Assembly: GCA_946187695.1 (NCBI GenBank)
Contig: CAMHSB010000001.1
Span: 62,001 to 126,000 of the forward strand
Reading direction: 5' to 3'
DNA: 64,000 nucleotides
Source of the DNA: an uncultured Bacteroidales bacterium
GTDB taxonomy: Bacteria; Bacteroidota; Bacteroidia; Bacteroidales; Paludibacteraceae
This document shows, piece by piece, positions 41,834 through 60,251 of this stretch; positions within the stretch are counted from its first letter, which is position 1, and each line of letters begins with the position of its first letter. The position numbers and the translations under genes are program-made. The notes beneath the pieces are model-generated. The model saw only the letters and a program-made list of their open reading frames with translations. It ran no database searches and was not told where the DNA came from.

Positions 41834-41853
41834 AAAATGTCAGATTTATTGCG

Positions 41854-41885: not shown

Positions 41886-41901
41886 AAAGTTTGTACTTTT
41901 G
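41870..41901 (+). promoter_or_regulatory. Promoter of the Cys-rich lipoprotein
   Basis: TTTG at 41870-41873 and TACTTTTG at 41894-41901 with a 20-base spacer. A leader of about 140 bases follows. Confidence 0.82.
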
Positions 41902-41937
41902 TAGCGTTTTTCGCAGAAATACGAAGAATAAAAAGAA

Positions 41938-42046
41938 AATAAAGCTTTATTAACCCAAATTATGAAGGTTTGTGCAAGTCGAATGTAAGCTTGCTTACGC
42001 AATTCGACGAAGCCAAAGCTCCACAATTTAAAATTCATTTTAAATT
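41938..42046 (+). promoter_or_regulatory. Structured 5' leader with a small upstream ORF
   Basis: The leader of the Cys-rich lipoprotein contains four elements. First is a 14-base palindrome AATAAAGCTTTATT (41938-41951). Second is an 8-codon ORF at 41962-41988 (MKVCASRM). Third is a hairpin at 41978-42008, with GTCGAAT/ATTCGAC and GTAAGC/GCTTAC stems, which contains the ORF's stop. Fourth is a perfect 10-base A/T stem at 42025-42046 ending directly against the start codon. Together they look like translational control by the upstream ORF (inference). Confidence 0.5.
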
Positions 42047-42199
42047 ATGAAGAAGATGCTTCTTATCGTAGCTGTTGCTTTCGCTGCAATGAGCTGCGGC
42101 AACAAGTGCTGTGAGAAAAAGTGCTGCCAGGACAGCTGCTGCCACCAAGACACCGTTGAGGTAGTTGAGGCAGAGGCTGCTGTTGAGGTAGCTGAGTAA
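42047..42199 (+). CDS. 50-residue Cys-rich lipoprotein
   Basis: A complete 50-codon gene: signal MKKMLLIVAVAFAAMSC with the lipobox Cys at 17, then CC pairs at 21-22, 26-27 and 31-32 followed by His33. The evenly spaced C-x3-CC-x3-CC-x3-CC-H pattern suggests metal binding. The tail (VEVVEAEAAVEVAE) is acidic and repetitive. Codons are biased to GCT, GTT, GTA, GAG and AAG, as in highly expressed genes. It has its own promoter, long leader and terminator. No family recognised; a metallothionein-like or thiol-based envelope role is inference only. Confidence 0.82.
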   Translation: MKKMLLIVAVAFAAMSCGNKCCEKKCCQDSCCHQDTVEVVEAEAAVEVAE

Positions 42200-42233
42200 T
42201 TGTTGCTCACTTAGGTATTAGACCTGAAAAAGA

Positions 42234-42263
42234 AGCGACCCTTTCGGGCCGCTCTCTTTTTTT
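42234..42263 (+). terminator. Intrinsic terminator of the Cys-rich lipoprotein
   Basis: AGCG-A-CCC pairs with GGG-C-CGCT around loop TTTC (one internal mismatch), followed by a T run from 42257. Confidence 0.78.
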
Positions 42264-43794: not shown

Positions 43795-43835
43795 ATGATT
43801 ATTGTTTAAATTTGTCTCAACCGATTTTGCGGCTG

Positions 43836-43867
43836 CAAAGGTACTACAAAAAAATGACATACGCAAG
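43836..43867 (-). promoter_or_regulatory. Promoter of gpmI
   Basis: Minus-strand -7 TACCTTTG (43843-43836) and -33 CTTG (43867-43864) with a 20-base spacer. Confidence 0.78.
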
Positions 43868-43911
43868 TTTGTATGTCACTTTTTGAAAATTTTCTCTTGT
43901 AAGACCAATTG

Positions 43912-45666
43912 TTATCTCACTTCTTGACCGGTTAGGGTATAGGCCTTGCCGTCACGAATGATGAGGAGCCGGCCGTTCAGGAAGATTTTGCCGTTCGTGC
44001 CCACTGAAGTATCCCAATAGGAGGATTGTTCGAGGTCCGTTGTCGTTCCCGATTCTTCCGGGTTGGAGGGGATAATCGGCGGAGTCGGAATGATTTCGTA
44101 ACCTCCTTCTATCAGTTCGCCTGTATAGCCCGTAGTAGCAAACGCACCGATATAGACGTGTAATGGCGTGCCGTTTGCATCGAGCGTAGAGAGGACGTAG
44201 TTGTAACGGGAAGCAACATCGAGACCGGTGATATTAAACGACAGGGTGGCAGGCAGTTGGGTACTGTTACCCGTTTCGCCTTCCGCACTCTGCTCATTTC
44301 GTTTTGGCGCATTGAACGTTATTCCCTGCAATTGTCCGGTCGGACCAAGCGTCAAATGACAGAAGACCGCACCGCTTTTGTAGATATCAATCTGGTATGA
44401 ACCGGCGGCACTATCAGTAGGCCATGTCATGACCGCACTGGTCTGAGCCGGATCAACCGTCACTTTGTCAAGAGTTGTTTCAACAGCAGCCGTGTGGAAA
44501 CTGCCGGAAACGGTACTGATAGTCTGACCGTTCACGTCTTCTCCGGAAATAGCGTACCAATAGTCCGTATTGGCCTGTAAACCGTTGAGCGTATAGAAGA
44601 AAAGCCTGTCCGTATATTCGGTATCTTCCGCTTTGGTACGTGCCGGAGCATGAGGGATAAAATGCAGACCGGTCACTACGCCGTTACGATCAAAGGTTAT
44701 ATAAAACGCCTCTTCCGTCCGTGTACTGTCTGAATAGACATGCAGGATATACGTCTCGGCATTCGGTACCGATGTCCATTGAAAGATAGCACTGTGGGTA
44801 TTCGGCACAACGGGGAAAAGGTCACTGCCGTCATGGTTTTGGACGAGACGCACTCCTTTGCCCACATAGCGGTTGTCCATTAACTTAACAGGGGTTCCAT
44901 AAGGAACAAAGTAATATGCTCCATTGGCATTGGTTTGCGTGGCTGTCCAATAACGCGCCGATTGTGCCACATAAACGGATGTGCAGTACGATGTTGACCA
45001 CGAGGTCATGGTTCGTTCATACGTAACAGGAAGAAATACTGCTCCTGCCATTTCCATAATCATCCATTCATCCGCCGTATAGATATTTGGGGCCAAGGTA
45101 GAATCAGTACTGTTGGATGGTTTGAAATGCATACCTTCAGGTAGAATCCAATTATCAGGAAGGAGGATTGCACCGTTCACACCATTCACTTTTCCGTTCG
45201 CACGAAGTTCTGCAGCGTTACGCCTATTATTATATAAGTATTCCCAATTATAGACACTCAGTGTCCACCATTGATTAGGAGTGTTCCCTCCATTACTAAT
45301 GGCATTATTTCCCCAGTCATTAAACGAACTATAATCGGTGTTATAGGTAGTACTGGTATTCGGTTTTTGGCCTGTTCCCCATCCGAAGAGATCGAGCCAT
45401 CCCAGATAGTTCCATACCCATCCTCCACCGGAAGAAGACCATTGATAATCACGGATGCGCTCATTGTCCGTACCCACAAAGTCCCACTGGTTCTCGGCGA
45501 AACGCCATGTGGACGTACTGGGTTGGTACTGAAGGTTGCCACGCGAGAAAGCCACCGTGTCCGTTGAGCTGATAGCGAACTTACCACGCAATGCGCCTTC
45601 TGTTGCGTACATGCTGCTTGCCATCCAAATCAGGCAAACAAGAATAATAGATACTTTCGTTTTCAT
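43912..45666 (-). CDS. Surface protein: lectin-like domain, two fibronectin-like modules, sorting-like tail
   Basis: A 584-residue exported protein (signal MKTKVSIILVCLIWMASS). The N-terminal region (about 25-285) has FSRGNLQYQPSTSTWRFAENQW, WLDLFGWGTG, ILLPDNWILPEGMHF and a RYWTATQTNANGAYYF block. It resembles the FISUMP-type, possibly C-type-lectin-like, domains common in Bacteroidales and Fibrobacter (moderate certainty). Two fibronectin-III-like modules follow (about 290-395 and 400-520). The 20-residue tail contains GRLLIIRDGKAYTLTGQEVR. Both its ends are nearly identical in DNA to the 50734-52767 gene. It has its own promoter after the OmpA gene. Confidence 0.8.
   Translation of the reverse strand: MKTKVSIILVCLIWMASSMYATEGALRGKFAISSTDTVAFSRGNLQYQPSTSTWRFAENQWDFVGTDNERIRDYQWSSSGGGWVWNYLGWLDLFGWGTGQKPNTSTTYNTDYSSFNDWGNNAISNGGNTPNQWWTLSVYNWEYLYNNRRNAAELRANGKVNGVNGAILLPDNWILPEGMHFKPSNSTDSTLAPNIYTADEWMIMEMAGAVFLPVTYERTMTSWSTSYCTSVYVAQSARYWTATQTNANGAYYFVPYGTPVKLMDNRYVGKGVRLVQNHDGSDLFPVVPNTHSAIFQWTSVPNAETYILHVYSDSTRTEEAFYITFDRNGVVTGLHFIPHAPARTKAEDTEYTDRLFFYTLNGLQANTDYWYAISGEDVNGQTISTVSGSFHTAAVETTLDKVTVDPAQTSAVMTWPTDSAAGSYQIDIYKSGAVFCHLTLGPTGQLQGITFNAPKRNEQSAEGETGNSTQLPATLSFNITGLDVASRYNYVLSTLDANGTPLHVYIGAFATTGYTGELIEGGYEIIPTPPIIPSNPEESGTTTDLEQSSYWDTSVGTNGKIFLNGRLLIIRDGKAYTLTGQEVR
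44037..44229. repeat. Copy 1 of a 193-base C-terminal module repeat
   Basis: Aligns without gaps to 50847-51039 with seven mismatches by my count. It encodes RYNYVLSTLDANGTP, then IGAFATTGYTGELIEGGYE and the Pro-rich linker. Confidence 0.9.
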
Positions 45667-45675
45667 GATCGTATA
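45605..45675. repeat. Copy 1 of the signal-peptide repeat
   Basis: Aligns to 52706-52776 with five mismatches in 71 bases, covering the signal peptide and the leader just upstream. Confidence 0.88.
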
Positions 45676-45739
45676 ATTATATCAAGTTTAAACATTCTAT
45701 ATACCTTATTTTTTACAGATTTTACTACAAAAATGCCTG

Positions 45740-45771
45740 CAAAATTACTGTGTTTTTTTGATATATGCAAG
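45740..45771 (-). promoter_or_regulatory. Promoter of the 45666 surface protein
   Basis: Minus-strand -7 TAATTTTG (45747-45740) and -33 CTTG (45771-45768), giving a 73-base leader. Confidence 0.78.
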
Positions 45772-45780
45772 AGTTAAAAA

Positions 45781-47205
45781 TCATTTTTTCCTCAAATCGG
45801 GAATGATTTCGACACGGCGGTCTTTGGATAATTGTTTTTCGGCATTATATCTATAGGGTTTGTTGGCTCCGTATGACCAGACGAACATCCGGTCTCCCGA
45901 GATTCCTTTTTCTTCCAGCAATGCGGCTACCGCTTGGGCGCGCAGGAGGGCCAGACGTCGGTTATAGCGTTCTGTCCCAAGCCGGCAAGCATGCCCGTTA
46001 ATGTGAATACGCAGGCTTGGATGACGATGCATCATCGCAGCTATGGAATCCAATATATATGCCGGCTCAAGGATCGGAATATATTCGTCCAGATGGAACC
46101 ATATTACTGCTTCCGACAGCAATGAATCTAATCTTTTTTGTGGAGAGGAGCAGATGGTGTCGTGAATCAATCCCGTGTTCCGGATAACTATGGTATCATG
46201 CAGGTAGATGGTATCATGTACGACCTCCTTAGCGGCCATTTCCGGGAATTGTTTCTGGAGTTCCTTCAGTTCTCTTTTCTTCTCTTTGTCGGTCTTTCCG
46301 GGCCATATGGACAGGCCTGCTTTCACGCCGGCCATCCAGGGGTGGCTGCTACCGGTTTTATCCGTGCCGATAAGTCCCCGGTATTCGTTCATGAACGCGT
46401 ATCGGTTTGTCTCGTTTCGAAATCCCAAAGCGGTTTTTTCATTTTGCTGAATAGCGCAGAAATCATTGATCATCATCTGCCCGAATGCCGCTACGTAGAG
46501 TTCAAGATGCGGGTTGATCCGGATGGCGGTTCCTAACTCGGCGTAGGCCTCTGCGTTGATTATATGCAGTCGGTCAGCCATGCTTTCTTCCTGCGGTTCG
46601 CGGAACCTCTCGGTCTCAAACCTGCCCGGAAGATCACGGAGCAATAGTTGCCATTGCTCATACCATCCGGTGTGGGTGATATCCCCCGAGACACGGGTGT
46701 AACCCGCTATCACGGGAAAAGCAACTTTCAGTCCGGCAGCGGCGTGCAATCCGATCCGGCTCTCGCGGTTCTTGAAATACCTGAACCGCAATCCTACCGG
46801 TATCTCTAATAAATAGGCCTGCTGATTCTCTTGCCAATGATCAAGTTCGGTACGATGGATATATGTCTCGCCCATATAGTCGGTTAGAGCAGAGCCGTCC
46901 TGCCATTCGCGCCATTCCATCGGTTGGGTTAGTCGGGCAGATGAGGCTATGCGGCTGAAAGACAATCCTGCCTGCACGCCGATACCGGGAAGAAAAAAGA
47001 ACGTGTATCCTGCGCCTGCAGAAAAAGCACCTCCGATAGTCACTTCCCCTCCGGTCAACGGATAATTCCAATGACTCACGCCTCCGGCTCCGTAGATATC
47101 TATATAATGACGAACGGGCTTCTCTTCCGGTGCTTTCTGCTTACCGGAAACATCGGTACAAACAGCGATGAAAACGGAGAAAATGATGATTCCGATGCGT
47201 TTCAT
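45781..47205 (-). CDS. OmpA-family outer-membrane protein
   Basis: A 474-residue protein: signal peptide, an N-terminal beta-barrel of about 280 residues (YIDIYGAGGVSHWNYPL, GAGYTFFFLPGIGVQAGLSFS), a charged linker (KTDKEKKRELKELQKQFPEM) and a C-terminal OmpA domain. That domain (about 370-474) reads LRIHINGHACRLGTERYNRRLALLRAQAVAALL, then YGANKPY and DRRVEI, the peptidoglycan-binding signature. Its start overlaps the T9SS-type surface protein by four bases (ATGA), so the two are made together and may form an anchor-and-adhesin pair (inference). Last gene of the five-gene operon. Confidence 0.9.
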   Translation of the reverse strand: MKRIGIIIFSVFIAVCTDVSGKQKAPEEKPVRHYIDIYGAGGVSHWNYPLTGGEVTIGGAFSAGAGYTFFFLPGIGVQAGLSFSRIASSARLTQPMEWREWQDGSALTDYMGETYIHRTELDHWQENQQAYLLEIPVGLRFRYFKNRESRIGLHAAAGLKVAFPVIAGYTRVSGDITHTGWYEQWQLLLRDLPGRFETERFREPQEESMADRLHIINAEAYAELGTAIRINPHLELYVAAFGQMMINDFCAIQQNEKTALGFRNETNRYAFMNEYRGLIGTDKTGSSHPWMAGVKAGLSIWPGKTDKEKKRELKELQKQFPEMAAKEVVHDTIYLHDTIVIRNTGLIHDTICSSPQKRLDSLLSEAVIWFHLDEYIPILEPAYILDSIAAMMHRHPSLRIHINGHACRLGTERYNRRLALLRAQAVAALLEEKGISGDRMFVWSYGANKPYRYNAEKQLSKDRRVEIIPDLRKK

Positions 47206-50200
47206 GGTATAAGTATTTTACGGATTTGTATTTGTGTCTTCCCGTCATGCCATCGGATGAGATAAATTCCGCTTTTATCGGCATGAACGCATCTCCTGCC
47301 GTCCATAGTATAAATCTCCGTCTCTCCTTCGCTCCAGACGGGTAAGACAGCTGTTTCCTCTAATCCTTCGGTAGGTCGCATTTCGTATACACAACTACGA
47401 TAGACTATGCCGTCATCCCCGGTCATCTCTACCTGGTAGTAACCGTTCAAACCGAGGTACTCATAGTAGAATTGCTCTGTTGCGTTTTCCATCCGTTCTC
47501 CGTTCCGATACCATTGATAAGCGGTAAAAGTCAGGCCCGCGTCATTATTCTTTCCGCTGTTGTCTACGAAGAGTACATCGTTTCCTTTACGATGAACCAA
47601 TCCGTCCAGATCTATGGAAGCCTGTATCTCATGAGGAAGGCCTCTGCACTCGCTCTCTCCGGCCGATGATGCGTAAAAAAGCACGGTGAAATCGAGCATA
47701 GTTATGGGTAATTCGCCGGGTATGGGTACTACTATCGGTCCTTCGGCAGGCAACTCTTCCCCATAGACGGAGACAAATCCTAAGGCTGCGGCTTTTTCGG
47801 AAACGATCAGGTCGTATAGGTCCGGATGGCCTTCACGGATGTCATAATGTATCTCCATAGAGGCGTCGGATTCGCAAATAGAGATCACCGGCTTGACTTC
47901 CACTACGGGCACCGGGGTAACTTGGCAAACCAAACTCACTTCCAGCGGACAACCTTCCTCTGTCCGGTCGGTCATCACTACTGTTTCCCCTGTCTCGGAG
48001 AAAGAGTATTCCTTTGTAGTCCCGTCGGCAAAGGAGTATATACCATGGTAAGGCATGTCGGTCATACAAACGGTGACAACCTTTCTTCGCTTCTCTGCTC
48101 GTCCAAGTCTCCACATGGCGGTGTTGGCCGAGTGTTGCCATTCGGTCACGCATCTGGAGTTCTGTACGGCCCGCTTGACGCAAACCGTTACCGGCACGGC
48201 CAGACCGTAACGGCTCAGCGTAATGGTAGTATCCAAAGAGGCCGAATTAACCCGTAAGGTATCCAGAAGTTCTTCTCCGTCTCCTCCGCGGTACAACAAC
48301 CAGCAATACGTGAAATCTCCTTCTCCGCTCGCACTCTCATCATCGCTGATATGCATCTCTACTTCCTGTATCGTCCCGTTCTCCAGGCATACCTGCTCCT
48401 CTATTTCCCCGATGGAACCGGCGTTATATGCACTATACACATGAATGACTACTTCTCCTTCCGCGGCTGTCCAGTCCATCAAACCGGTATTGTCCTTTAC
48501 CTCCCTGCGGAACACGTAATTCTCACCGTTAATCATCGGAATACGTGCTATCTCCAGTTCCGTGGTATCGCTCTCGGGAATAACGACGTCGTTGCAAAGC
48601 CATCGGTAGGTATAAATGCCGTTTCCTCCGGTTACCGTTTCAGTCTCCCGGACGATATCTGTACAAACAGGGGTGCATAACTCGCGTTCGTAGGATTCTA
48701 TCTTCCCCGGATGGATCGTATTAAAGGCCACTACTTTGTGCGCGTGCTCGCATGATAGGGGTAATGCTTGGCAGGTTGCTTCGCTGACCTTCCGGTAGAA
48801 TGTGTATTCTCCGGCTTCCTTGAAGGTGTAATCAAAAGAAGCTGTACTTACTTTGGAGGAACCTATATAAAGCGGTTCGCGCGTGTCTTCTTCTACTTTA
48901 TCCCAACTCTGACTCGCCGTATCCAGTACGGCATGCTCCATCTTCCATACATACTCAAACTTGCCCCCTCCGCCGGTAGCATCCGATTTACTGTGTATCG
49001 TCAGTACTTGCGGTAATCCGTATAGGGTGTCCGGCTCTTCGTACAAATCTCCCGGATCAAACCTCCGGCGGACAAAGAGACAGAGTCTTCCTTCTGCTTC
49101 TCCCGTCCCGCCTTTCGATGCCGTCCATTCCGTCTTGCATTTCGTGTCATGGGCATATCGGCGGAAGGCGTATTCTCCCGGGACGTCTGTCGGCATAGAC
49201 CAATCTTTGTACGTCGGCTGCGACATATAAAAAGTATCTATGGGTTCAAAATCATTCGGAAAACCGTTCTCATCGTGGCCCAAGATGGTGTCGCGGATAA
49301 TCATGTATTGGTAGGATGCGTTCGTATGGTCCTGCTCGTCGTCTTTTCCGCCGCTGGCTTCCTTTCCGCTGTTGTTCTTGTCCTTAAATCGTACATCCTC
49401 CTCATTCCAGCAGGCAGAATATACTCCGGTCACGATGCCGGCATCGAAGGCTTCATACCCCTTTACAATCGTGTACACCTGCTTCACTGCCGGACCGCAA
49501 CTGATGGTCAGGATCACCTCCTGATTGCCGCAAGGCCGTTTCACTTCTGCCGACGCACCCCTGGGATTGGGAATAAAAATAACATCCGGACTCGGCGAGT
49601 ACCAATCTCCGGAACCAAAAGCCGCATTGTTCAGCCTCTCCAGACCTATACTATTACGCGGTTTGTTTCCTTCTTCCGGCGCTCCCACTCCTTCCGCACG
49701 CATGACCGGTACGGTCTCTGCATCCAGCAAGACGGTCTTGACAGAGACCTCCGAAGCAATGTGGTTGCCAAAACAAACCAGCTGCGGGTGGCTCTCATAG
49801 CCTCCTGCAAAGCACCTCCATTCCTCTTCCGGATACTCATAGTAAGGACTTGAAAGCCCGATGAAATCGGACGATTTGGCAATCGCGTATTGGGTGTTGT
49901 CTGTGAGGATGGGATCTGCGGCTCCGTATCCGGTGGCGTACATACGTGTCAGCTGTTGGTCGAAGAACACCGTCGTCAGATTCCCCTGCGGCGCTTCGTT
50001 CTTGCCGAATAGCGCGCCTACATGGTCGGTTCCCTTGCAATACCCTATGTTGTAGCAGTTGTTCAAAACGGCGGTGGCTTTGTTATAGCCCACTAATCCG
50101 CCTACATGATTGTTGCCGTCGGTGATGATCCCGGCGTTGTATGAATAGCTGATTCCGCCGTAGTTAGTACCCACGAGACCACCGATGTTATCACCGTTGT

Positions 50201-50723
50201 GCGCGATAATCTGCGCCATATTAAAACAATGGTGTATCTGTCCGCGGTTGATTCCTGCGAGGCATCCGACATTACTGGTAGCGTCCGTCATGATTTGTCC
50301 CTGCGCGATACCCAGATGGTGAACGACCGCCGAGTTCCCGCTTTCTGCAATCAGTCCTGCGCCAGCAGGGAAGAGCGAAGAGAGCATGTACAGATTATAA
50401 ATCACATGGTTGGCTCCGTCCAACTCGCCCTGAAACGGTCTGGCTGCGCTGCCTATCGGTTCCCAACTCGGCGGAGTAGAGCCGTTTCCCCCTAAATCAA
50501 GGTCTGAAGCGAGAAGAATGGTCTTCCCCGCAAAATCATCCGTGCGGCTTGCTGCGGCTATCCATGCTAACTCTTCAGCAGTCCGGATAGTGTAGATTTC
50601 TCCGTTGAAATTGGGCATTTGTGTACCTCCGCTCCAGGGTATCAAACTCTGCGCAGAGGTATGGGTTACCCCTAATACCATGCTTATCAGCACAGTATTT
50701 ATCCACATAAATACGCGTGTCAT
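47202..50723 (-). CDS. Large T9SS-type surface protein with GLUG motifs
   Basis: An 1173-residue exported protein (signal MTRVFMWINTVLISMVLG). The N-terminal region has GLUG-type repeats (VGCLAGINRGQIHHC, IGGLVGTNYGGISYSYN, VGGLVGYNKATAVLNNC, about 150-265). The middle (about 330-1090) is a string of Ig/PKD-like beta domains with disulfide-capable Cys. The end has the standard T9SS type A pattern: EIYTMDGRRC, then KSGIYLIRW, then KTQIQIRKILIP. It is therefore expected to cross the outer membrane through T9SS and be displayed; adhesion is plausible but not shown. It overlaps the OmpA gene and follows the 677-residue gene by 10 bases. Confidence 0.85.
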   Translation of the reverse strand: MTRVFMWINTVLISMVLGVTHTSAQSLIPWSGGTQMPNFNGEIYTIRTAEELAWIAAASRTDDFAGKTILLASDLDLGGNGSTPPSWEPIGSAARPFQGELDGANHVIYNLYMLSSLFPAGAGLIAESGNSAVVHHLGIAQGQIMTDATSNVGCLAGINRGQIHHCFNMAQIIAHNGDNIGGLVGTNYGGISYSYNAGIITDGNNHVGGLVGYNKATAVLNNCYNIGYCKGTDHVGALFGKNEAPQGNLTTVFFDQQLTRMYATGYGAADPILTDNTQYAIAKSSDFIGLSSPYYEYPEEEWRCFAGGYESHPQLVCFGNHIASEVSVKTVLLDAETVPVMRAEGVGAPEEGNKPRNSIGLERLNNAAFGSGDWYSPSPDVIFIPNPRGASAEVKRPCGNQEVILTISCGPAVKQVYTIVKGYEAFDAGIVTGVYSACWNEEDVRFKDKNNSGKEASGGKDDEQDHTNASYQYMIIRDTILGHDENGFPNDFEPIDTFYMSQPTYKDWSMPTDVPGEYAFRRYAHDTKCKTEWTASKGGTGEAEGRLCLFVRRRFDPGDLYEEPDTLYGLPQVLTIHSKSDATGGGGKFEYVWKMEHAVLDTASQSWDKVEEDTREPLYIGSSKVSTASFDYTFKEAGEYTFYRKVSEATCQALPLSCEHAHKVVAFNTIHPGKIESYERELCTPVCTDIVRETETVTGGNGIYTYRWLCNDVVIPESDTTELEIARIPMINGENYVFRREVKDNTGLMDWTAAEGEVVIHVYSAYNAGSIGEIEEQVCLENGTIQEVEMHISDDESASGEGDFTYCWLLYRGGDGEELLDTLRVNSASLDTTITLSRYGLAVPVTVCVKRAVQNSRCVTEWQHSANTAMWRLGRAEKRRKVVTVCMTDMPYHGIYSFADGTTKEYSFSETGETVVMTDRTEEGCPLEVSLVCQVTPVPVVEVKPVISICESDASMEIHYDIREGHPDLYDLIVSEKAAALGFVSVYGEELPAEGPIVVPIPGELPITMLDFTVLFYASSAGESECRGLPHEIQASIDLDGLVHRKGNDVLFVDNSGKNNDAGLTFTAYQWYRNGERMENATEQFYYEYLGLNGYYQVEMTGDDGIVYRSCVYEMRPTEGLEETAVLPVWSEGETEIYTMDGRRCVHADKSGIYLIRWHDGKTQIQIRKILIP

Positions 50724-50733
50724 AAATTCGTGC

Positions 50734-52767
50734 TTACTCGATCCGTTTTCCGGTTATATCATAGGTACCTTGCGGTGTAATAAAGAGAAGTCGTCCTTCA
50801 ATAATGGCTTTTTTCTCCGGGACCTCCGAGCCGGTTTCTTCTATTCCCGTTGTCGTTCCCGATTCTTCCGGATTGGAGGGAATGATCGGCGGAGTCGGAA
50901 TGATTTCGTAACCTCCTTCTATCAGTTCGCCCGTATAGCCCGTAGTAGCAAACGCACCGATATAGACGTGAATGGGCGTGCCGTTTGCATCGAGCGTAGA
51001 GAGGACGTAGTTGTAACGGGAAGCAACATCGAGACCGGTCACTTTGAAAGACAAGGTATAAGGCTGAGTGTCATTGGCATTGTCCATCGGTGCTCTTCTA
51101 CCCGGCGCGGAGAACGTGATGGCTAACAACTGTCCCCTGTTGCCGAGCGTTAGCTTGCAGAAGACCGCGCCGTCCTTGTATATGTCTATCTGATAACTAT
51201 GCGCCGCGCTGTCTGTCGGCCAAGTGAAATCCGCCGTCGTTTGTCCCGGATCGACCGTCACAGAGCGCTGAATCATGGCGGAGTCAGGTGTGTCATTCAT
51301 GCGGAAACGACCCCAGTAAGGGTGCTCGCGGTAAAGTTTGCGGCTATCAGGTAACACACTCAATAAAGCGCTGTCCGGAATGTCCGCCAATGTCCCTTCG
51401 CTTACTGCCGGAGGAGTAGCCGCCCAGACGGAAATATGCGTTATTGCGCTGTCACCCTTGAAGGCATTATCCCCGATGAGAACGACGTTTTTGCCAATCG
51501 ACAACTCCTTGAGCGCGCTCCAATTTTCAAACGCGTTCGTGCCGATGGAGATCACTTTGTCGGGGATGGCCAACGAGTCTTGCAACTTAACCCCTGAGAA
51601 AGCACTTCCGCCGATCATCGTCAGTTCTTTCGGCAGTACGATATAATCCAAGTTAGGACACCCCGAGAAGGCATTATCCCCGATAGTGCTGACGCTATCA
51701 GGTATCTCGACTCGCCTCAAGGCTGAACACCCGTTGAATACGGAAGAATTGATGGCTTTCACTTTCTGAGGTATAGTGATTCGCTGAATCTTCGTACATC
51801 CCTTGAAAGCCTCTTGGTGAATGGCTGTCAACGTAGAAGGAAGGATAAGCGTATCCAACTTGTTGTTACCCGAGAAGGCGCCTGAACCGATATATTTACA
51901 GCCCTCAGGCAGCACGATTTTCTTCATGAGTACCTGCTGGCATAGACCTGACGGCACAAACTCTACATCCGGACCGAAGATAAAATCGCCCCTCCAGTAG
52001 CAGTAAAGATTATAAAATACCGACGAAGAAGCCGGAGGGTTCTTGGCGTTCCAAACAATAACAGGACTATCGTGGTAGCACCACGAGATCTGTTTGTTCG
52101 AGCGGAACGTCGCCGGGAAGAACAGCGTGTCCCGAAGCGGAATAGTGGCTACACTATTTTGGTCGTATGACGCTCTATCGGGTTCGCCGTCAAAAATACT
52201 GCCGTCAATCACCTCCAGACAATCCGACCAGCGGACAGAGTTCAAGTGATAGCAGTTCTGGAAGGCCATCTGACCGATATACTTAACCCCCTTGCCCAAA
52301 TCGCACTTCACCATCGTCGTGCAGTTGCTGAAGGCGTATTGCCCCACGGTGTCCACCGAGTTAGGCAGTTTGATCTCCTTTAACTGGTAGCAGCTCTCAA
52401 ATAGGTAAGCAGGTATTTTTGTCACGCCTTCGGGGATCTCGCACGCCGTCAGGTTCCACCAATCCCGGAATGTAGCACCGCTGAATCCCGTCAGCCCTTC
52501 CGGTAACGAAATCGTCTTACACGAGTTATACGGATAGTACGTCTTATAACTCGTTGACCACGACGAAGCCTGCAGCACCTGTTTGTTCCACCAGAGACTA
52601 TCGACGACATTCTTCAACTCGCCGTAGCCATCAATGGTCATGTGCGCCGTCTCCGTATCATAGCTCCACGTCAGATGCTCTCCACACACGCCGGTATACA
52701 CCGTCGCGTACGCGCTGCTTGCCATCCAAATCAGGCAAACAAGGATAATAAATACTTTTGTTTTCAT
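50734..52767 (-). CDS. BspA-like leucine-rich-repeat surface protein with fibronectin-like module and tail
   Basis: A 677-residue exported protein (signal MKTKVFIILVCLIWMASS). After GVCGEHLTWSYDTETAHMTI come about 15 BspA-type LRR units (e.g. IPDSVSTIGDNAFSGCPNL, IGTNAFENWSALKELSI) to about residue 480. A fibronectin-III-like module and a Pro-rich linker follow, then the tail GRLLFITPQGTYDITGKRIE. BspA-type LRRs bind host or environmental proteins. The signal-peptide and C-terminal DNA is nearly identical to the 43912 gene while the middles are unrelated. Third of five genes in the operon. Confidence 0.87.
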   Translation of the reverse strand: MKTKVFIILVCLIWMASSAYATVYTGVCGEHLTWSYDTETAHMTIDGYGELKNVVDSLWWNKQVLQASSWSTSYKTYYPYNSCKTISLPEGLTGFSGATFRDWWNLTACEIPEGVTKIPAYLFESCYQLKEIKLPNSVDTVGQYAFSNCTTMVKCDLGKGVKYIGQMAFQNCYHLNSVRWSDCLEVIDGSIFDGEPDRASYDQNSVATIPLRDTLFFPATFRSNKQISWCYHDSPVIVWNAKNPPASSSVFYNLYCYWRGDFIFGPDVEFVPSGLCQQVLMKKIVLPEGCKYIGSGAFSGNNKLDTLILPSTLTAIHQEAFKGCTKIQRITIPQKVKAINSSVFNGCSALRRVEIPDSVSTIGDNAFSGCPNLDYIVLPKELTMIGGSAFSGVKLQDSLAIPDKVISIGTNAFENWSALKELSIGKNVVLIGDNAFKGDSAITHISVWAATPPAVSEGTLADIPDSALLSVLPDSRKLYREHPYWGRFRMNDTPDSAMIQRSVTVDPGQTTADFTWPTDSAAHSYQIDIYKDGAVFCKLTLGNRGQLLAITFSAPGRRAPMDNANDTQPYTLSFKVTGLDVASRYNYVLSTLDANGTPIHVYIGAFATTGYTGELIEGGYEIIPTPPIIPSNPEESGTTTGIEETGSEVPEKKAIIEGRLLFITPQGTYDITGKRIE
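50847..51039. repeat. Copy 2 of the 193-base C-terminal module repeat
   Basis: Partner of 44037-44229. Identity falls sharply just beyond 51039, which suggests a local exchange boundary. Confidence 0.9.
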
Positions 52768-52776
52768 GATCGTATA
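52706..52776. repeat. Copy 2 of the signal-peptide repeat
   Basis: Partner of 45605-45675. It ends at the stop codon of the preceding gene. Confidence 0.88.
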
Positions 52777-55700
52777 TTATTTGATTTGGGTTCCTCGTAT
52801 ATCGTACATCCGTCCTTCGCGCAGAATATAAATCTGCCCGTCTCGCAGCACCTTTGTACACCGCACATCGTTGCTGTGCACATCCTCGATGCCTGTAGTC
52901 GTTCCACTCTCACCGAGTGTGCGGAACGAGCCGGAACGGCTGTCCAGAATGCCGCCTTGTTCGCCTGACGCTGTCAGCGTGTACCAGTAGGTCGTGCCCG
53001 GCGACAGGTCTTCTATTCGATGGCTGAACTCCGTCTGCCATAGGGCTACAGAAGGAATAGCTGAATACTGATAACTGATGGCTGACGGCTGATTCCGTGC
53101 CGGCATATGCGAGAAGTCAATCGCCAGAACCGTACCCTTGGCATCAAAGAGAATGGTACACAGTTTGACGGTATGCGCCTCGTCCGCCCAGATGGTCAAC
53201 GAATAGCCCGTTGCGCCGTCCACTTTCGGCCAGGTGAAGAACGCACTCTCCTCTTCCGGCTCCACCGTAACCGGCTCACGGAAGGTTACAGGCTCCTCGC
53301 GCTGCGCCGTATAGCGGAAGGACATCGTATAATTGAGAGCTCCTCCAGCAGAAACATTCGCATAGTAAGCCTCCAGCGGTCGCGCCAGCCAGTCTTCGTT
53401 CGTGAAAACAGAAGCCAGGGTAGCCTCGGCAACACTATACGTTTGCGGAGAAAGAAGGCTGTATTGGCTCATCGGCGAGCCGTAAGAGAAGGACCATGCC
53501 TCGGCATCAACCAAACCGTCGCAGGTTATCTGACGGGCGGAACGGGAAACGATATTGCCGTCTTCGTCAAAAGTATAGTGTTTCTGTTTGTTCCCGCGGT
53601 AAGTGGGAGCGGCGCACACCCATTCCGGCTCCTGCCATACGGAGCGGAAAGACATATACCAGTCTTTCTCTCCCGGCTCATAGAGATACTCATATTGCTC
53701 GGCGGGCACGATTCCGGTGCTGTCTGCGGAAGCCGCATAGTTGGTCAAAGTCACCAGACGGCCCTCGCTGTCCGATATATGTTCGCCACTGTTGGCAAAA
53801 GCAAACTTGCTCCACACCTCTGTCTCTTTGTTATAGCCCGACCATGTGATAGCAGCTACGCACTCGCCGGTCTGCTCACTGTAGAAATAAATCTTCTTGG
53901 TGTCCGGCACACTGTCTTTGTACGCTACATGAACAGCTACACGCCCCTCTGCATCGTAGCTGAAGGCATTATGTATCTGCGTCACAGGAGTCATGCTTCC
54001 GTCATTATACGTGCGCGTCTCCAGCAGCCATCCGTCCGCATTGTATGTTTTGAAGGTGTGGCTGTATGTCCTCGTGCCGACTAAACGCATCTCATGCAGC
54101 GGAGCATGAATGGTGTCTGCTCCTGACAAACGGTTGTGCCAATCCACTCCGAGATTAGAGTATCTCCATGAACTGTAATTGCTCTGGGTGGGATCATCGG
54201 AATCAATTCCATAGTCCGTCCATGTATCAGCCAGCGAATAACTGTGACGCTTGGCAATGACAGCTTTCCCGTCTTCTTCAGGGAAATATTCATAGACGAA
54301 ATAGCGCACAAGCTTCCACTCCCCGCAGAAGGCATAGCGGTACAACGTATCTATGCGTCCTTGCGCATCATAATGACGTTTGTTGTAGATACCGTTCACA
54401 TTCACGTGCGTTATGGGTAAATAATGCGATACGCAGTTCACAAAATAGCCCAGGTAATTACCCTCACGGTCATAATACGTATAGTCCTCGCAGTCATAGG
54501 GATGAATGGTTTCTTTAGAATAGATATCCGCTGTGTCATACATGCTCCATGCCACACGCTGGCAGACATACCGTTGCTCGTCCTCGTCCCAACGGTGGAA
54601 CAGGTAATAATCTCTATCGGTTTTTGTGTTGTTGTTTTGGGTGGTGGCAGAGATAGCAGACACGGGCTCACCGGTCATGTCGAACGTCACTACATACTTG
54701 CTACTCTCCGTTATTTCCCATTTCATCGAGGAAATATCAAACTTCTCTGTGGTGCTCTCGCTGTCCCAGCCGTTGCTGTATTTCTTGGAAGTCGTCCGCG
54801 TGCTGTCTTTGGTATTCACGCTCATCGACCATGTATATTCGTCCGTCACCAGTTTCTCTTTGGTCAGATACCATGTATCTATGAAACCATGGGTATATTC
54901 TTTTTCGTCAACTACGGTATTATCGTCCGCATACACATATTCCTTGAGTGAATAGGTTCCCCATTCAGGGCTATATCGCTTGTAAGAATATTTGGTTCCC
55001 TCCCATTCCACAGAGTCCGTATAAGGAACTTCCACTTGCGCGGAATCACCTGCCAGCAATATATTGAATCGCTCATCATAACGATACCACTGGTGCTTCT
55101 CCAAATAAACGGTATCGTACCTGATGGTTATATACTCTATATAGTTACCATTGGGTACAGTTATATATATCCTAAGCACCTTCGGATAAAGCTCATCTTT
55201 ATAGAGCAAATGCGCCTTTTTAGCGTCTGCCGTCTCTTCTATCATCCATTGCTCTTCATTGTAGATTTGCTCGATTCCATCGGTAGTAATCGTTTTCTTG
55301 GCATAGATGGTTTGATTGATGGAAGAGTCATACAGACGCTGCTCGCGGGTAATCTTCGAATGCTGCTCCCCCTCCGCATCAACCGGCCATGCACGCGACT
55401 CTTTGATCTCCAATACACTGTCGCCGCCCAAATAGGTCACGTCTTTCATAGCATAATACGTCGGAACGGAGTCTTCCGTCCAGCGCTCCGTCAGTTCGTA
55501 GGTTCCGGTTTGGATACCATATTTGTTATAGCGGGTGCTTTTCGTCACGCGGGACGGTTTTTTATTGTACGGTTTGATATTTATCTCCGATTTCATCGAT
55601 AAAATATGGTCTTTGTATTGCTCCGTGCGGATAGGGCTCTGCAACTCCCAGACCACAGGGAGATACGAATATACGGCGGTATTCAGAAACCTCATTTCCG

Positions 55701-56373
55701 TACTGCTGCTGTCGGTCTGAATCAGCACATTGCGGTCATACGTCTCATAGGGAAGCTTGTTGTAATCGGCAATGGAAAACTCGCCGCTTTCTTTATAATC
55801 CTCCAGAAATTTATTCAAGGAGTCATAGTCTATATAATGCCTTGTGTAGTCATAATTACGTATCTGGCGGAGGAGATTGCCCTCTTCGTCATATACATTG
55901 CGGTAGGTGTCATAAGCGTAATCTTCGTATTCCATGGCTGCTATGACGGTATCTTTGAAAGGATCAATCTGCGGAATGCTATCTACGAAACGAACCTTAT
56001 TGCCCCCTTTGTGCAGACGGAGATTATAGACTTTCTCCCTGTGCTTGCCGTCCGGACCGAGTTGGTCATAATCGGTTTTAGAGATGCGGTTGGAAACCTC
56101 TATCGTATCCGCAATACGGTCCACTTGCGGATACCGAACCACGCTGAAGGATGAGTCGGTGTAGAAAAAGCGCACCAGAGAACCGCTGTAAATGAGGTCC
56201 CCGTAATCCGATACCAATTTCTTGTCATAGGTAGAGACCATCTCGTCCAGCCGCCACGCATACTTGTCCGTGGAGATCGTTTGACCGCCTTGGGCTTCTT
56301 GCGCGTACACGCATGTTCCTTCTAATAACATTCCTGCTACCAACAGCAGGCCCAAAATGAAGCTCTTTTTCAT
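52777..56373 (-). CDS. Large YD-repeat-like surface protein with sorting-like tail
   Basis: A 1198-residue exported protein (signal MKKSFILGLLLVAGMLLEGTCVYAQ). The long body is beta-rich and aromatic, with many short units of the type YDEEGNLLRQIRNYDY, YDAEGRVAVHVAYKD and FDEDGNIVSRSARQ. These resemble the Y-D-x-x-G-x-L core of YD/RHS repeats, though irregular. Near 1010-1130 is a fibronectin-III-like module containing a heptamer-encoded NQPSAISYQYSAI insert. The tail GQIYILREGRMYDIRG is nearly that of the 56394 gene. The ATG at 56373 opens the signal peptide. Second gene of the operon. Function unknown. Confidence 0.8.
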   Translation of the reverse strand: MKKSFILGLLLVAGMLLEGTCVYAQEAQGGQTISTDKYAWRLDEMVSTYDKKLVSDYGDLIYSGSLVRFFYTDSSFSVVRYPQVDRIADTIEVSNRISKTDYDQLGPDGKHREKVYNLRLHKGGNKVRFVDSIPQIDPFKDTVIAAMEYEDYAYDTYRNVYDEEGNLLRQIRNYDYTRHYIDYDSLNKFLEDYKESGEFSIADYNKLPYETYDRNVLIQTDSSSTEMRFLNTAVYSYLPVVWELQSPIRTEQYKDHILSMKSEINIKPYNKKPSRVTKSTRYNKYGIQTGTYELTERWTEDSVPTYYAMKDVTYLGGDSVLEIKESRAWPVDAEGEQHSKITREQRLYDSSINQTIYAKKTITTDGIEQIYNEEQWMIEETADAKKAHLLYKDELYPKVLRIYITVPNGNYIEYITIRYDTVYLEKHQWYRYDERFNILLAGDSAQVEVPYTDSVEWEGTKYSYKRYSPEWGTYSLKEYVYADDNTVVDEKEYTHGFIDTWYLTKEKLVTDEYTWSMSVNTKDSTRTTSKKYSNGWDSESTTEKFDISSMKWEITESSKYVVTFDMTGEPVSAISATTQNNNTKTDRDYYLFHRWDEDEQRYVCQRVAWSMYDTADIYSKETIHPYDCEDYTYYDREGNYLGYFVNCVSHYLPITHVNVNGIYNKRHYDAQGRIDTLYRYAFCGEWKLVRYFVYEYFPEEDGKAVIAKRHSYSLADTWTDYGIDSDDPTQSNYSSWRYSNLGVDWHNRLSGADTIHAPLHEMRLVGTRTYSHTFKTYNADGWLLETRTYNDGSMTPVTQIHNAFSYDAEGRVAVHVAYKDSVPDTKKIYFYSEQTGECVAAITWSGYNKETEVWSKFAFANSGEHISDSEGRLVTLTNYAASADSTGIVPAEQYEYLYEPGEKDWYMSFRSVWQEPEWVCAAPTYRGNKQKHYTFDEDGNIVSRSARQITCDGLVDAEAWSFSYGSPMSQYSLLSPQTYSVAEATLASVFTNEDWLARPLEAYYANVSAGGALNYTMSFRYTAQREEPVTFREPVTVEPEEESAFFTWPKVDGATGYSLTIWADEAHTVKLCTILFDAKGTVLAIDFSHMPARNQPSAISYQYSAIPSVALWQTEFSHRIEDLSPGTTYWYTLTASGEQGGILDSRSGSFRTLGESGTTTGIEDVHSNDVRCTKVLRDGQIYILREGRMYDIRGTQIK
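53057..53091. repeat. Five heptamers of type ATAACTG inside the YD-like gene
   Basis: ATAGCTG, AATACTG, ATAACTG, ATGGCTG and ACGGCTG. In frame on the minus strand, they encode QPSAISYQYSAI in the fibronectin-like module. Confidence 0.85.
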
Positions 56374-56384
56374 AATTATATAGG

Positions 56385-56413
56385 ATTTACCAATTACCAA
56401 TCACCAATCATCC
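56385..56413. repeat. Four heptamer-like units at the end of the 56394 gene
   Basis: ATTTACC, AATTACC, AATCACC and AATCATCC. They encode the last residues IGDW and the stop of the LRR protein, then run into the gap before the next gene. Confidence 0.85.
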
Positions 56414-58643
56414 TTCCTCGTACATCGTACATCCGTCCTTCGCGCATCAGATAGATTTGTCCGTTTATCACTACCTTGGTCCTTAGGCCTTGGTCACTTA
56501 GTCCTTGGTCACTTGGTCCTTCCTCTACTCCTGTCGGCGTACCGGCTCCGGCTGTGGCAAACGAACCGGAGGTCTGGAAAAGCTCGGTATCTTGGGCATC
56601 ATAAGCCCCCATTGTGTACCAATAGTGAGTGTTCTCGTCCAAACCGTTGTAACGGAACGAGAAGGTACCAGCGGTATTCATCGCCCGACGTACAGGTGCG
56701 TGCTTGGAGAAGTCGATCTCAACGAGTTGTCCCATGGAGTTGAACGTCAGCGTACATATCTTCTCCGTACGCTCTTCATTCGCCCAGATGATGAGTGTGT
56801 AGTAGCTGGCACCGTCCACGGCCGGCCATGTGAACTGCACGCTGTGCTCGTCGGGTTGCGTCTCTACTTCCGGCTCTTTTTCCGGCAGCTCCAGAAGTGT
56901 ACTGTCCACTTGGATGTTAAAGCCGTTCCAGATGCTATTAGCACGATAGATCTCCGCAAGCGAGTCACAAGGTACTAAAAGCACCGTTTGTGCTTGGTTA
57001 AGAAGATTGAAAGGATTGCCCTGAGTTGCCGGAACCGACATCATCGGCGCTACAATCGTGTCTATCACCGCCGAAACATCGTTACCCAAGTAATAGCCGC
57101 CGAACAACTCGTTCTCTATTTGACTCAGACCTTTCGGCAATACCAACTTACGAAGATTCACCGCTCTGAGCGAAGAAGAACGCAAGGTGTTTACTTCTTC
57201 CGGTAGCACGAACTCCTCTCCGTCATGCTTGCACGGATAGAGCGCCAACGCCGTCGTGTCTGCCGAATAGAGAACGCCGTCTATCGCACGGAAGTGCGCG
57301 TTGGCTTTCGGCATCCGGATATACCAGAGTGCGGGACATTTATGAAAAGCATAAGCGCCTATCTCTCTGAGACTGTCGCCTATCTCAATAATTTCCAGAT
57401 TATTGCAGATTCGGAATTGTCCTTTACCGATCATGGGACTGTTGATGACCGCTTTCTTGAGTTTCGGACTGTCGGCAAATACCTGTTCACCCATCTGTTT
57501 AAGCGAGGAAGGTATCGTTACCTGCTCCATGGCATAAGAGCGTAAGAATGCCTCGTCGCCTATTTCTTCCACCGTTTCAGGTATAACATAATGTCTGTTG
57601 CTGTCATACTTCCCAAGGCTGTTGGCCTCGAAAGCGTATTCGCCGATAGAGCGCACTTTGGTCATGGTCAGATCAACAGCGGAAACAGAGAAAGCATCCG
57701 CAGCGATATGAACGACACTTTCCGGCAAAGTGAAAGCGCCATTTATTGCCGCCGGACAACATATTACGGTATCCATGTTGATAGTCATAAGCATGTTGTT
57801 CCATGTAGTGTAGTGCGTGTTGCCTTCAGCAACGGAGATTTTCCGCAATGAGCCGCCAAAAATCGCCCCGGGAGTAACATATTCCAACGAAGCCGGTAGA
57901 TGGAGCGTTTTAATGACAGCATTGAGACTGAACATCAGTCCGTAGTGTTCAATACGCTTCACGCCTTCCGGGATGGTAAGGCTCGTAATTTGTGTACAGC
58001 CGTAGAATGCACTCTTGTAAATCACCTGAATGCCCGCAGGTATCGTATAGGCACCTTGGTAACTATCCGGCATCAGCACAAACAGACTGTCGTTGTAAAT
58101 CGGATCTTGAAGCGCAGGTAGGATATAGAAGGACCACGATGTCAGCGACTTCACCGAATTAGCAAGGTGTACACGTTGCAAATTGGGCATCTGCTCAAAC
58201 GAACGTTGCTCAATATAAGTCACGCCTTCCGGCACGCGGAACTCAATGAGTCCTGCCTTCAAGAACGCCTCAAAAGGAATCTCTGTGATCGTACTGTCCG
58301 GAATGATACACGATGTAAGATTCGTGCATTCCAGGAATGCTTCTCGCCCTAAATTACGCAGGGTTTGTGGCAATACAATGGATGTCAGTTGATTGCATCC
58401 AGAAAATGCAGCGTTAGCCATACCCGTAACTGCGTAATTCGCGCCCTCGTACGTCACGGTGTCATTAATAACAATGTCACCAACAGCGGTAGTTTTACTC
58501 TGTACCGCAATTTGTGCCGTCATAGCTGTAGTGTCCAGCGTATAATAAACGCTGTCAATGAAAACTCGTTGTGCGTACATGCACGTTCCTTTTAATAACA
58601 TAATTGCTACAAAAAGCAGACAAATTTGATTTTTCTTTTCCAT
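56394..58643 (-). CDS. BspA-like leucine-rich-repeat surface protein, first gene of the surface operon
   Basis: A 749-residue exported protein (signal MEKKNQICLLFVAIMLLKGTCMYAQ). Residues about 60-560 are BspA-type LRR units (IVLPQTLRNLGREAFLECTNL, IPAGIQVIYKSAFYGCTQI, VEEIGDEAFLRSYAMEQ). A fibronectin-III-like module follows (about 595-700), then a heptamer-encoded GPSDQGLSDQGL linker and the tail GQIYLMREGRMYDVRGR. It appears lengthened at the very end by a second heptamer tract (IGDW). The start at 58643 is preferred; 58652 is also in frame. Its promoter faces that of the adjacent TPR regulator, which may control it. Confidence 0.87.
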   Translation of the reverse strand: MEKKNQICLLFVAIMLLKGTCMYAQRVFIDSVYYTLDTTAMTAQIAVQSKTTAVGDIVINDTVTYEGANYAVTGMANAAFSGCNQLTSIVLPQTLRNLGREAFLECTNLTSCIIPDSTITEIPFEAFLKAGLIEFRVPEGVTYIEQRSFEQMPNLQRVHLANSVKSLTSWSFYILPALQDPIYNDSLFVLMPDSYQGAYTIPAGIQVIYKSAFYGCTQITSLTIPEGVKRIEHYGLMFSLNAVIKTLHLPASLEYVTPGAIFGGSLRKISVAEGNTHYTTWNNMLMTINMDTVICCPAAINGAFTLPESVVHIAADAFSVSAVDLTMTKVRSIGEYAFEANSLGKYDSNRHYVIPETVEEIGDEAFLRSYAMEQVTIPSSLKQMGEQVFADSPKLKKAVINSPMIGKGQFRICNNLEIIEIGDSLREIGAYAFHKCPALWYIRMPKANAHFRAIDGVLYSADTTALALYPCKHDGEEFVLPEEVNTLRSSSLRAVNLRKLVLPKGLSQIENELFGGYYLGNDVSAVIDTIVAPMMSVPATQGNPFNLLNQAQTVLLVPCDSLAEIYRANSIWNGFNIQVDSTLLELPEKEPEVETQPDEHSVQFTWPAVDGASYYTLIIWANEERTEKICTLTFNSMGQLVEIDFSKHAPVRRAMNTAGTFSFRYNGLDENTHYWYTMGAYDAQDTELFQTSGSFATAGAGTPTGVEEGPSDQGLSDQGLRTKVVINGQIYLMREGRMYDVRGRMIGDW
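56475..56518. repeat. Six 7/8-base units CTTGGTC inside the LRR gene
   Basis: CTTGGTC, CTTAGGC, CTTGGTCA, CTTAGTC, CTTGGTCA and CTTGGTC. On the minus strand they encode the SDQGLSDQGL linker just before the tail. Confidence 0.88.
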
Positions 58644-58645
58644 AA

Positions 58646-58677
58646 TTTGCATATGTTAAAAAGTTTTACTAATTTTG
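58646..58677 (+). promoter_or_regulatory. Promoter of the TPR regulator, facing the surface-operon promoter
   Basis: TTTG at 58646-58649 and TAATTTTG at 58670-58677 with a 20-base spacer. Its transcript would start near 58684 and run through the leftward promoter. The leader is about 125 bases. Confidence 0.7.
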
Positions 58678-58706
58678 CGACGTGATTTATGTTTTGAAAT
58701 CCGGTG

Positions 58707-58808: not shown

Positions 58809-60251
58809 ATGAAAAATAAAGTTGTACGCGTATATTTTTTATGCCTTTTGGGCTTGACTTTTTGTTGGCAGAGTTGCCATTCGGGGTCTCAAAACACCCG
58901 AAATCAGTTGCATGAGGCAGAAGAATTATACCAACAAGGTATCTCTTCTAACAGCAGTAGTCAGTACGAAAGTTCTACCGCCTATTTAAAGCAAGCGGAG
59001 GAGATTCTGGTGGATCTTCCGCAGTCGGCGCAAAGAGATCAGTTGTTAGGCCTGACTTGGTTTCGTTTAGGCAACACCTCGGAAAGCGAGATGCTGTACG
59101 ACATCGCGCAAAATTATTACCGCAAAGCTATCCCGATGTTAGATCCCGATAGTAATGCAGTTTATTTAGCCTGTGCCTACCGTGACATCGCACGTACGAT
59201 GGCTATAGCGGGCAGCAAACAAGACAGTGCGCTTTGGTATTTTGCGCAAGCAGAGCGGTATGCGCGCGCAGCCAACAGTCCTTTGCTCTTACTCGATATA
59301 GATGCCTATCGCTACCAACTCTGCTATCCGGACAGCGTAGACCACCGCCTGGCGGTCTGCAAGCAGCTGGCAGAAGAGTACCACATTCCTACGCGTTATT
59401 CGGAGATCGTCGAACTGCTCTTGGCGCAACACGCTACGGACTCTGCCGCCTATTATCTGGAGCACTTACAACCTACCGACTCTGCCTACGCCTATTGGTT
59501 CGAACAAAGTTATGCGTATCTGAACAGCAAGATCCTCCGTCAACGCGGACAAGCCGACACGGCCTACAGCGTGTTGTTGGATTTGTATGATCGCAAGATA
59601 GACGAGCTGCAGCGCGACGCGGGCGCACGCACGTACGCGCTTTCCTTACATTATGATGTCGCACGCGAGCAACAACGCGCCGAAGAGGCACAACGTGAAC
59701 GACAATGGCAACGCAAGATCTCGTTTGTGCTGGTACTATTGTTAGCGGTCGTTCTGGTGCTGTTTATCGTCCTTTGGAGGTATTGGCAGCAACGACGTCG
59801 TGAACAAGCAAGACAGTTAGAGGCCTTGCGGGACAAGTACGTACAGCAGTTACAATTGGCGTTGGAACGGCTTCAGCAGAAAGTAAACCTCACCCGCGAG
59901 ATAGAGATGCAGCGAATGCGCGGCAACGAAGTAGAGTTCCCGAAATGGCTGCAGACCTACCGCGATGAGCAACTGACGATGAGCAAAGAGAGTCTGGACG
60001 AACTGATTGCTTCGATTGATAAAGCCTTAGATGGCGCCATCAGTCGCTTGCGCGCGGAGTATCCGGAACTGACCGAATCGGATATGCAGTTCGCTATTCT
60101 ATCCATCATCGGTGCCTCCGACAACGATATGTCTATCGTGCTGAACGTACAAAAACAAACAATCTACCATAGAAGGCAGATCGTCCGTAAACATATCAAC
60201 TCAGAGATAGAGGATATTGATGCGTGGCTGCGCACTTACGTGCTGCGTTAA
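58809..60251 (+). CDS. Membrane-spanning TPR regulator with LuxR-like HTH
   Basis: A 480-residue paralogue of the 31154 regulator. A lipoprotein-like signal (FCWQSC) precedes TPR helices outside (about 30-290; QLHEAEELYQQGISS, YDIAQNYYRKAIPML, ALWYFAQAERYARAA). A transmembrane helix follows (FVLVLLLAVVLVLFIVLW, about 305-324), then a long basic coiled coil (about 330-390). The C-terminal helix-turn-helix reads LTESDMQFAILSIIGASDNDMS, then NVQKQTIYHRRQIVRKHIN. The divergent surface operon is the obvious candidate target (inference). Confidence 0.8.
   Translation: MKNKVVRVYFLCLLGLTFCWQSCHSGSQNTRNQLHEAEELYQQGISSNSSSQYESSTAYLKQAEEILVDLPQSAQRDQLLGLTWFRLGNTSESEMLYDIAQNYYRKAIPMLDPDSNAVYLACAYRDIARTMAIAGSKQDSALWYFAQAERYARAANSPLLLLDIDAYRYQLCYPDSVDHRLAVCKQLAEEYHIPTRYSEIVELLLAQHATDSAAYYLEHLQPTDSAYAYWFEQSYAYLNSKILRQRGQADTAYSVLLDLYDRKIDELQRDAGARTYALSLHYDVAREQQRAEEAQRERQWQRKISFVLVLLLAVVLVLFIVLWRYWQQRRREQARQLEALRDKYVQQLQLALERLQQKVNLTREIEMQRMRGNEVEFPKWLQTYRDEQLTMSKESLDELIASIDKALDGAISRLRAEYPELTESDMQFAILSIIGASDNDMSIVLNVQKQTIYHRRQIVRKHINSEIEDIDAWLRTYVLR

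Follow-up and report, generated by a model that had tools for sequence, protein, structure and literature searches.

An array of genes for secreted, probably surface proteins in an uncultured Bacteroidales bacterium, with bodies that very probably act as cassettes exchanged within and between species

We analysed a 64,000-nucleotide stretch of an uncultured bacterium of the Paludibacteraceae (Bacteroidales), positions 62,001 to 126,000 of contig CAMHSB010000001.1, and we call this whole stretch the window. It contains an array of genes for secreted, probably surface, proteins, which we label A to D, along with two further genes, E and O. (By body we mean the part of a protein that lies between its signal peptide and its Fn3-like modules.) Comparison with related genomes indicates that, very probably, the bodies are exchangeable cassettes that have been swapped both within and between species. 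The genes and segments discussed below, in order of their position in the window, are:

43912..45666, minus strand: gene A, 584 amino acids, with a signal peptide, a body of about 263 amino acids, two Fn3-like modules and a short tail
44037..44229, minus strand: copy in A of the patch common to A and B (second half of the last Fn3 module, plus linker)
45605..45675, minus strand: 5' joint part of A (about 9 nucleotides (nt) of leader, plus signal peptide)
45605..50850, minus strand: putatively transferred tract of 5.2 kb, from near the tail of B to the end of the signal peptide of A, 98.1% identical to locus L081 and (from 50839) to locus L085
45781..47205, minus strand: gene O, 474 amino acids, with an OmpA-family C-terminus, within the tract
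47202..50723, minus strand: gene E, 1173 amino acids, within the tract, with a tail that resembles a sorting domain by eye only
50734..52767, minus strand: gene B, 677 amino acids, with a BspA-type leucine-rich repeat (LRR) body, one Fn3-like module and a short tail
50847..51039, minus strand: copy in B of the common patch, partner of 44037..44229
52702..52841, minus strand: C/B joint, our reference joint, which runs from the tail of C through a 9-nt spacer into the signal peptide of B
52706..52776, minus strand: 5' joint part of B (about 9 nt of leader, plus signal peptide)
52777..56373, minus strand: gene C, 1198 amino acids, with modules ordered as in A, B and D and a body without a family match above the cut-off
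56394..58652, minus strand: gene D, 749-752 amino acids, with a BspA-type LRR body; it occupies slot 1 and has the slot-1 leader
58809..60251, plus strand: divergent flanking gene, the anchor of the array, 480 amino acids, with a weak match to tetratricopeptide-like repeats that is below the cut-off

We mapped 65 loci from named genomes (numbered with an L below), which makes 66 with the window. The relatives are Bacteroidales or Paludibacteraceae, including one Candidatus Colicola caccequi, and the sources, where given, are goat, sheep, roe or red deer, dairy cattle and horse. Each species is represented by a single genome, in most cases a metagenome bin.

The anchor gene and the gene following it were found in 41 loci. 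In 14 of these, the first gene of the array (slot 1) starts with the same leader, of the MQIM type, at 143-188 nt from the anchor. Behind this leader, 6 loci have a D-like body and 6 a B-like one, and there is one case each of an A-like and a C-like body. We computed gapped identity profiles along the genes for 13 pairs that were picked by hand. (Averaged ungapped profiles for genes with the same body and different leaders were uninformative because the leader lengths differ.) In these profiles, identity steps at +60 to +75 nt, which is the border between signal peptide and body. For example, window D and the first gene of L106 are 93-100% identical from the ATG to about +75 and 33-53% identical thereafter, and the same L106 gene shows the reciprocal pattern against window B, with 20-60% identity within the signal peptide and 73-100% beyond about +75. 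In L113, a D body carries the signal peptide of A (93-100% identity to +60). A preliminary description of the window had proposed that modules are swapped between constant ends, and had suggested a comparison of the locus among relatives for alternative middles between the same ends. Such middles do occur: the slot-1 leader is followed by D, B, A or C bodies, the identity steps are reciprocal, and tails and joints vary independently of the body (see below). The relatives do not carry the same four genes with smoothly decaying identity, as a history without exchange would have it; the middles vary and identity steps sharply.

Some other gene starts are unusual. At L106 9974-11925, a slot-1 gene of type B is broken into two overlapping reading frames. 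In a public protein of type A (P0038), the slot-1 leader and a few D-like residues are stacked before the usual signal peptide and the A body; this resembles what a fusion at a joint would leave behind; alternatively, the start was called too far upstream. A second pair of genes in the same genome as the pair A and B, 8.3 kb apart (L079, at 3073 and 11383, or G000:C2:79039 and 87374), has a common leader and signal peptide (81 nt, 95% identity); their bodies differ (reading frames of 1302 and 476 amino acids) and their tails are partly similar.

To quantify the pairing of leaders and bodies, we used 112 non-E genes from 57 of the 66 loci and compared leaders by gapped local scores. (We dropped minus-strand, open or cut, and contig-edge genes, and bodies of fewer than 60 residues.) Between loci, 305 of 3,875 pairs with body identity below 25% had a leader in common (score of at least 50), versus 4 of 12,220 pairs in control comparisons with O, E and anchor genes. 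Furthermore, where bodies were at least 80% alike (411 pairs), the leader was common to 124 and unrelated (score below 25) in 60, and the tails were unrelated in 301.

The 3' ends are mixed as well. A joint starts with about 100 nt from the tail of a gene, followed by a 9-nt spacer and by the 66-nt signal peptide of the gene that comes next. The C/B joint has 37 copies (at least 80 nt, 73.6-100% identity, its own copy included) in 31 of the 66 loci; these copies stand between many pairs of body types, and 6 loci have two copies each. In 31 gene pairs, a common tail follows unrelated bodies, and averaged over all 31 the likeness continues through the stop codon and the spacer into the next gene (91, 85, 84, then 70%), with likeness ending at the stop codon in some of them. 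In 189 pairs, bodies that are at least 85% alike are followed by unrelated tails (60 of these pairs entered the mean tail profile).

Proteins of type A give a similar picture. We took the best 120 of 6,351 matches and used 59 of these plus A itself. In the 56 proteins with a complete signal peptide, the pairwise identities of the two halves of the body correlate at 0.82, versus 0.09-0.68 for those of different segments. This set, drawn from the best 120 matches, contains 24 combinations of segments, and the nearest relative of A in it differs for the body, the first Fn3 module, the second Fn3 module and the patch.

Apparent transfer between species is the strongest signal in these data, and it goes beyond what the preliminary description foresaw. 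As a baseline, we computed third-position identity between the window and 16 of the 65 named loci for core and flanking genes, where found: gpmI lies at 35-63%, the porX homologue at 37-59% and the anchor gene at 39-79%. Several loci have D or B bodies at 75-89%. Genes E and O are at 96-98% in L080, L081, L085 and L106, and in these same loci gpmI, porX and the flanking gene are, where found, at 51-70% (L106 has no gpmI or porX value). The tract around E and O is 5.1-5.4 kb long at 98.1-98.2% identity in these four loci and is at 95.8% in L120. Of 178 genomes, 5 others have O at 99% identity, and the next 3 have it at 68-71%. A tract of about 5 kb at 98% identity, given that third positions of core genes are only 51-63% identical, does not fit vertical descent. 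The end of the tract at the A slot is visible in L081 and L085, where O matches the window at 298/300 and 295/300 positions, the O-A spacer at 109/114 and 110/114, and the signal peptide after O at 60/63; the next body is unrelated (65 of 140 aligned positions). In L080 and L106, the tract and a diverged anchor gene lie on one contig, so misbinning is unlikely for these two.

E genes elsewhere (L061, L082, L121 and others) fall into groups, at about 62-64% or 95-98% amino acid identity to window E, or lower. The groups differ in their tails: some have a sorting-like end of the classical type, and others a short one that resembles those of the cassette genes.

Within the window, A and B have two blocks in common. 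The repeat pairs are 44023-44254 with 50833-51064 (91% identity over 232 nt) and 45602-45675 with 52703-52776 (92% over 74 nt). In the first block we recovered the 193-base match between 44037-44229 and 50847-51039 with its 7 mismatches (96.4%), and the second block contains the signal-peptide match that had been described at 45605-45675 and 52706-52776. The genes were said to share both ends, and this holds at the 5' end, where the block spans about 9 nt before the ATG plus the signal peptide. It does not hold at the 3' end, where the block is a patch in the second half of the last Fn3-like module and the linker, and over the final roughly 40 residues after it (the last three windows of the alignment) A and B are 44-58% identical. 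Because these tails differ, the patch is not a shared gene end. In a codon alignment, near identity extends from about codon 478 to 543 of A and has an edge on both sides: 30-nt windows that start at about codons 481-536 of A have 27-30 identical positions, and the remaining windows of the 190-codon alignment have 7-24. The flanks of the patch are about 60% identical, and silent sites are as alike as other sites within the patch and largely changed outside it. These sharp edges, silent sites included, are what a gene conversion tract would be expected to leave. The weaker version of this trend that had been reported for C and D is also present, with 60% amino acid identity over 25 residues in the signal peptide and 43% over 173 in the C-terminal module.

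L080, which belongs to UBA2800, carries relatives of both A and B. In five windows upstream of the patch, A resembles its L080 counterpart (88-97%) and B resembles its own (76-100%), and A and B are 59-67% identical to each other; a gap-rich window adjoining the patch is low in every comparison (33-58%). Six windows cover the patch: the one at its edge shows 83% identity between window A and B and the other five show 92-97%, and in these five A is at 76-83% and B at 56-75% to their L080 counterparts. In the last two windows, B returns to its L080 likeness (90-100%), as A does more weakly (67-83%). In this one relative that has both genes, then, the patch appears as a gene conversion tract would, with the paralogues closer to each other than to their counterparts, which agrees with the earlier proposal of gene conversion and also with the import of a patch. 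A search of the 178 genomes of the genus found matches to the patch in 45, the window's own included, and the best copy elsewhere is 85% identical at the nucleotide level. A public A-type protein, P0028, has the tail of A (96%) and a patch that agrees with B at 63/65 residues; the patches of A and B likewise agree at 63/65. P0028 argues against simple copying within the genome, and the A/B patch may be a circulating haplotype. The patch may have been copied from gene to gene or taken by each gene from a pool, since P0028 and A are equally close to B.

The exchange of modules would most likely proceed by homologous recombination at the short shared joints. Under this proposal, DNA from relatives would enter the cell, and ordinary homologous recombination or gene conversion would integrate it, with the joints and the Fn3/linker regions serving as homology. 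The observed breakpoints fall at the border between signal peptide and body and near the tail. Related species seem to draw on a common pool of surface proteins.

An alternative is that the constant ends are kept alike without exchange, by selection on DNA or RNA (as an export signal, a translation start or a regulatory leader). Indeed, the silent sites of slot-1 signal peptides are nearly frozen, and the flanking gene is close to saturation: in 45 pairs of signal peptides that precede unlike bodies, third positions are on average 92% identical, versus 49% for the anchor gene (the pairs come from 12 loci; of the 14 that have the slot-1 leader, L125 and L137 were left out). Many spacers also have the same 9-nt length. 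However, the same body stands behind unrelated leaders in the 60 of 411 pairs noted above, and within three classes of signal peptide, amino acid changes are more frequent than silent changes (largest class, 4.82 vs. 1.99 codons per pair; the others, 3.38 vs. 1.30 and 2.98 vs. 0.96), which is opposite to the pattern in B bodies (1.32 vs. 6.97). A recent spread by repeated exchange fits these observations. Constraint on leaders would also leave the 5-kb tracts at 98% and the mid-gene patch unexplained, and we consider selection alone to be an unlikely account.

We give even less probability to chimeric assembly of metagenome bins as the source of the hybrid genes. Repeats do break assemblies, contigs end inside array genes in L085, L113 and L138, and some shared leaders are 100% identical, so that single cases could be chimeric. 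Nevertheless, the A and B copies of the blocks are not identical but have mismatches at 4-8% of positions, the slot-1 leader with a B-like body recurs in 6 loci from separately named assemblies, and the contigs of L080 and L106 join the tract to a diverged flanking gene. A simple history of tandem duplication, in which the middles later diverged under diversifying selection, would account for the common module order and related Fn3 modules of A, B, C and D and for the LRR bodies of both B and D, but it is the least probable of these accounts, as the block edges are sharp rather than graded, the bodies come from different families, and orthologous bodies have unrelated ends.

Several points weigh against the exchange of cassettes. 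The first gene starts differently in 27 of the 41 loci with an anchor. Third-position identity in the signal peptides is above that of the D and B bodies, which leaves room for a constraint on DNA or RNA. Within-genome patches are occasional: of 125 module pairs compared within loci, 5 have a stringent block (at least 60 nt and 92% identity), in five loci, with only 3 in the Fn3/linker region (window, L085 and L083) and 2 in the tail (L116 and L114). The evidence comes from comparisons between species, each represented by one genome. The relatives are nearly all metagenome bins, in which repeats can cause chimeric joins. Finally, no recombinase or transfer element turned up, and none was systematically sought.

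As to what the proteins do, the LRR assignment of B was borne out by Pfam and extends to D (PF13306, 225.4 and 198.4 bits with a cut-off of 27.7); A, C and E had no match to this family. The lectin-like character once proposed for A was not confirmed. A has no Pfam family above the cut-off and no PDB sequence match at E ≤ 1, and PDB fold searches with A returned mostly Fn3 or immunoglobulin-type entries, none of them decisive for the body (residues 23-285), with the VIA-align matches mainly at residues 283-395. (The structural model of A had a mean predicted local distance difference test score of 43 when built from 11 sequences and 69 when built from 80, with most of the body at 80 or above.) No Rfam family reached its gathering score at 41000-60500.

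The products of A to D are likely displayed on the surface. The genome encodes type IX secretion machinery, with SprA_N at 623 bits and Por_Secre_tail over its cut-off at four places, and the array products presumably reach the surface by this route. A, B, C, D and E had no match to a sorting domain in Pfam or NCBIfam at E ≤ 0.1 and so lack this recognised mark of type IX cargo; their short tails resemble short sorting tails by eye only. About 4 kb from the array, at 38469-40016 on the minus strand, is a gene for a protein with receiver and PglZ domains, which we take to be a porX-type regulator of type IX secretion.

The benefit of the array would presumably be variety in surface binding or exposure. 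More tentatively, the joint might be a standard connector that is kept as a recombination substrate, with bodies interchangeable across the genus in an open, recombinase-free pool of cassettes, so that species identity and surface make-up would be uncoupled; we regard this as possible rather than probable. If it is true, the excess of amino acid over silent changes in signal peptides would reflect the repeated exchange of small haplotypes. With its exchanged cassettes, the array would be a clear natural case of gut Bacteroidales surface proteins being reassorted between species at defined joints. This is relevant to the ways in which gut bacteria vary their contacts with the host, the diet or phages, and it may help to explain why trees of surface-protein genes fail to mark species and why assemblies of metagenomes break at these loci. 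The short, defined joints should make rates of exchange measurable from long reads.

Shufflons and other phase-variable inversion systems also place alternative bodies behind a constant start. The joints in the array are in direct orientation, however, and no strong inverted repeats were found at the locus, which contains 14 imperfect pairs of 20-32 nt that are 72-81% complementary. The repeats thus give no support to an invertible shufflon.

Comparable systems are known. In Porphyromonas gingivalis, also of the Bacteroidales, the adhesin domains of the gingipains and HagA, and other variable surface proteins, are made of modules that recombine into mosaics unrelated to the genome phylogeny, with gene conversion proposed, and the proteins bear type IX export signals (PMC5266723, accessible part). 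As described there, the variation lies in adhesin domains within a few genes and was compared among strains of a single species; here, it concerns whole bodies from unrelated families, set between the joints of an array and compared across many species. The KLIKK proteases of Tannerella forsythia have near-identical ends on different proteases, for which a recent common origin of the domain was suggested; the accessible part of that report (PMC4404884) describes protease bodies and no joint array or interspecies exchange, whereas the array has LRR and other bodies. In the streptococcal emm/enn/mrp cluster, neighbouring surface-protein genes form chimeras by homologous recombination; according to the accessible part of PMC9993116, these proteins are LPXTG-anchored and related to each other, and the array contains several bodies of different families. 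A literature search of titles and the starts of abstracts, with subscription papers mostly beyond reach, found no description of this locus. Combinatorial recombination of surface modules is thus already known, and the array appears to be a new variant, in which whole bodies of different families are exchanged at defined joints across species.

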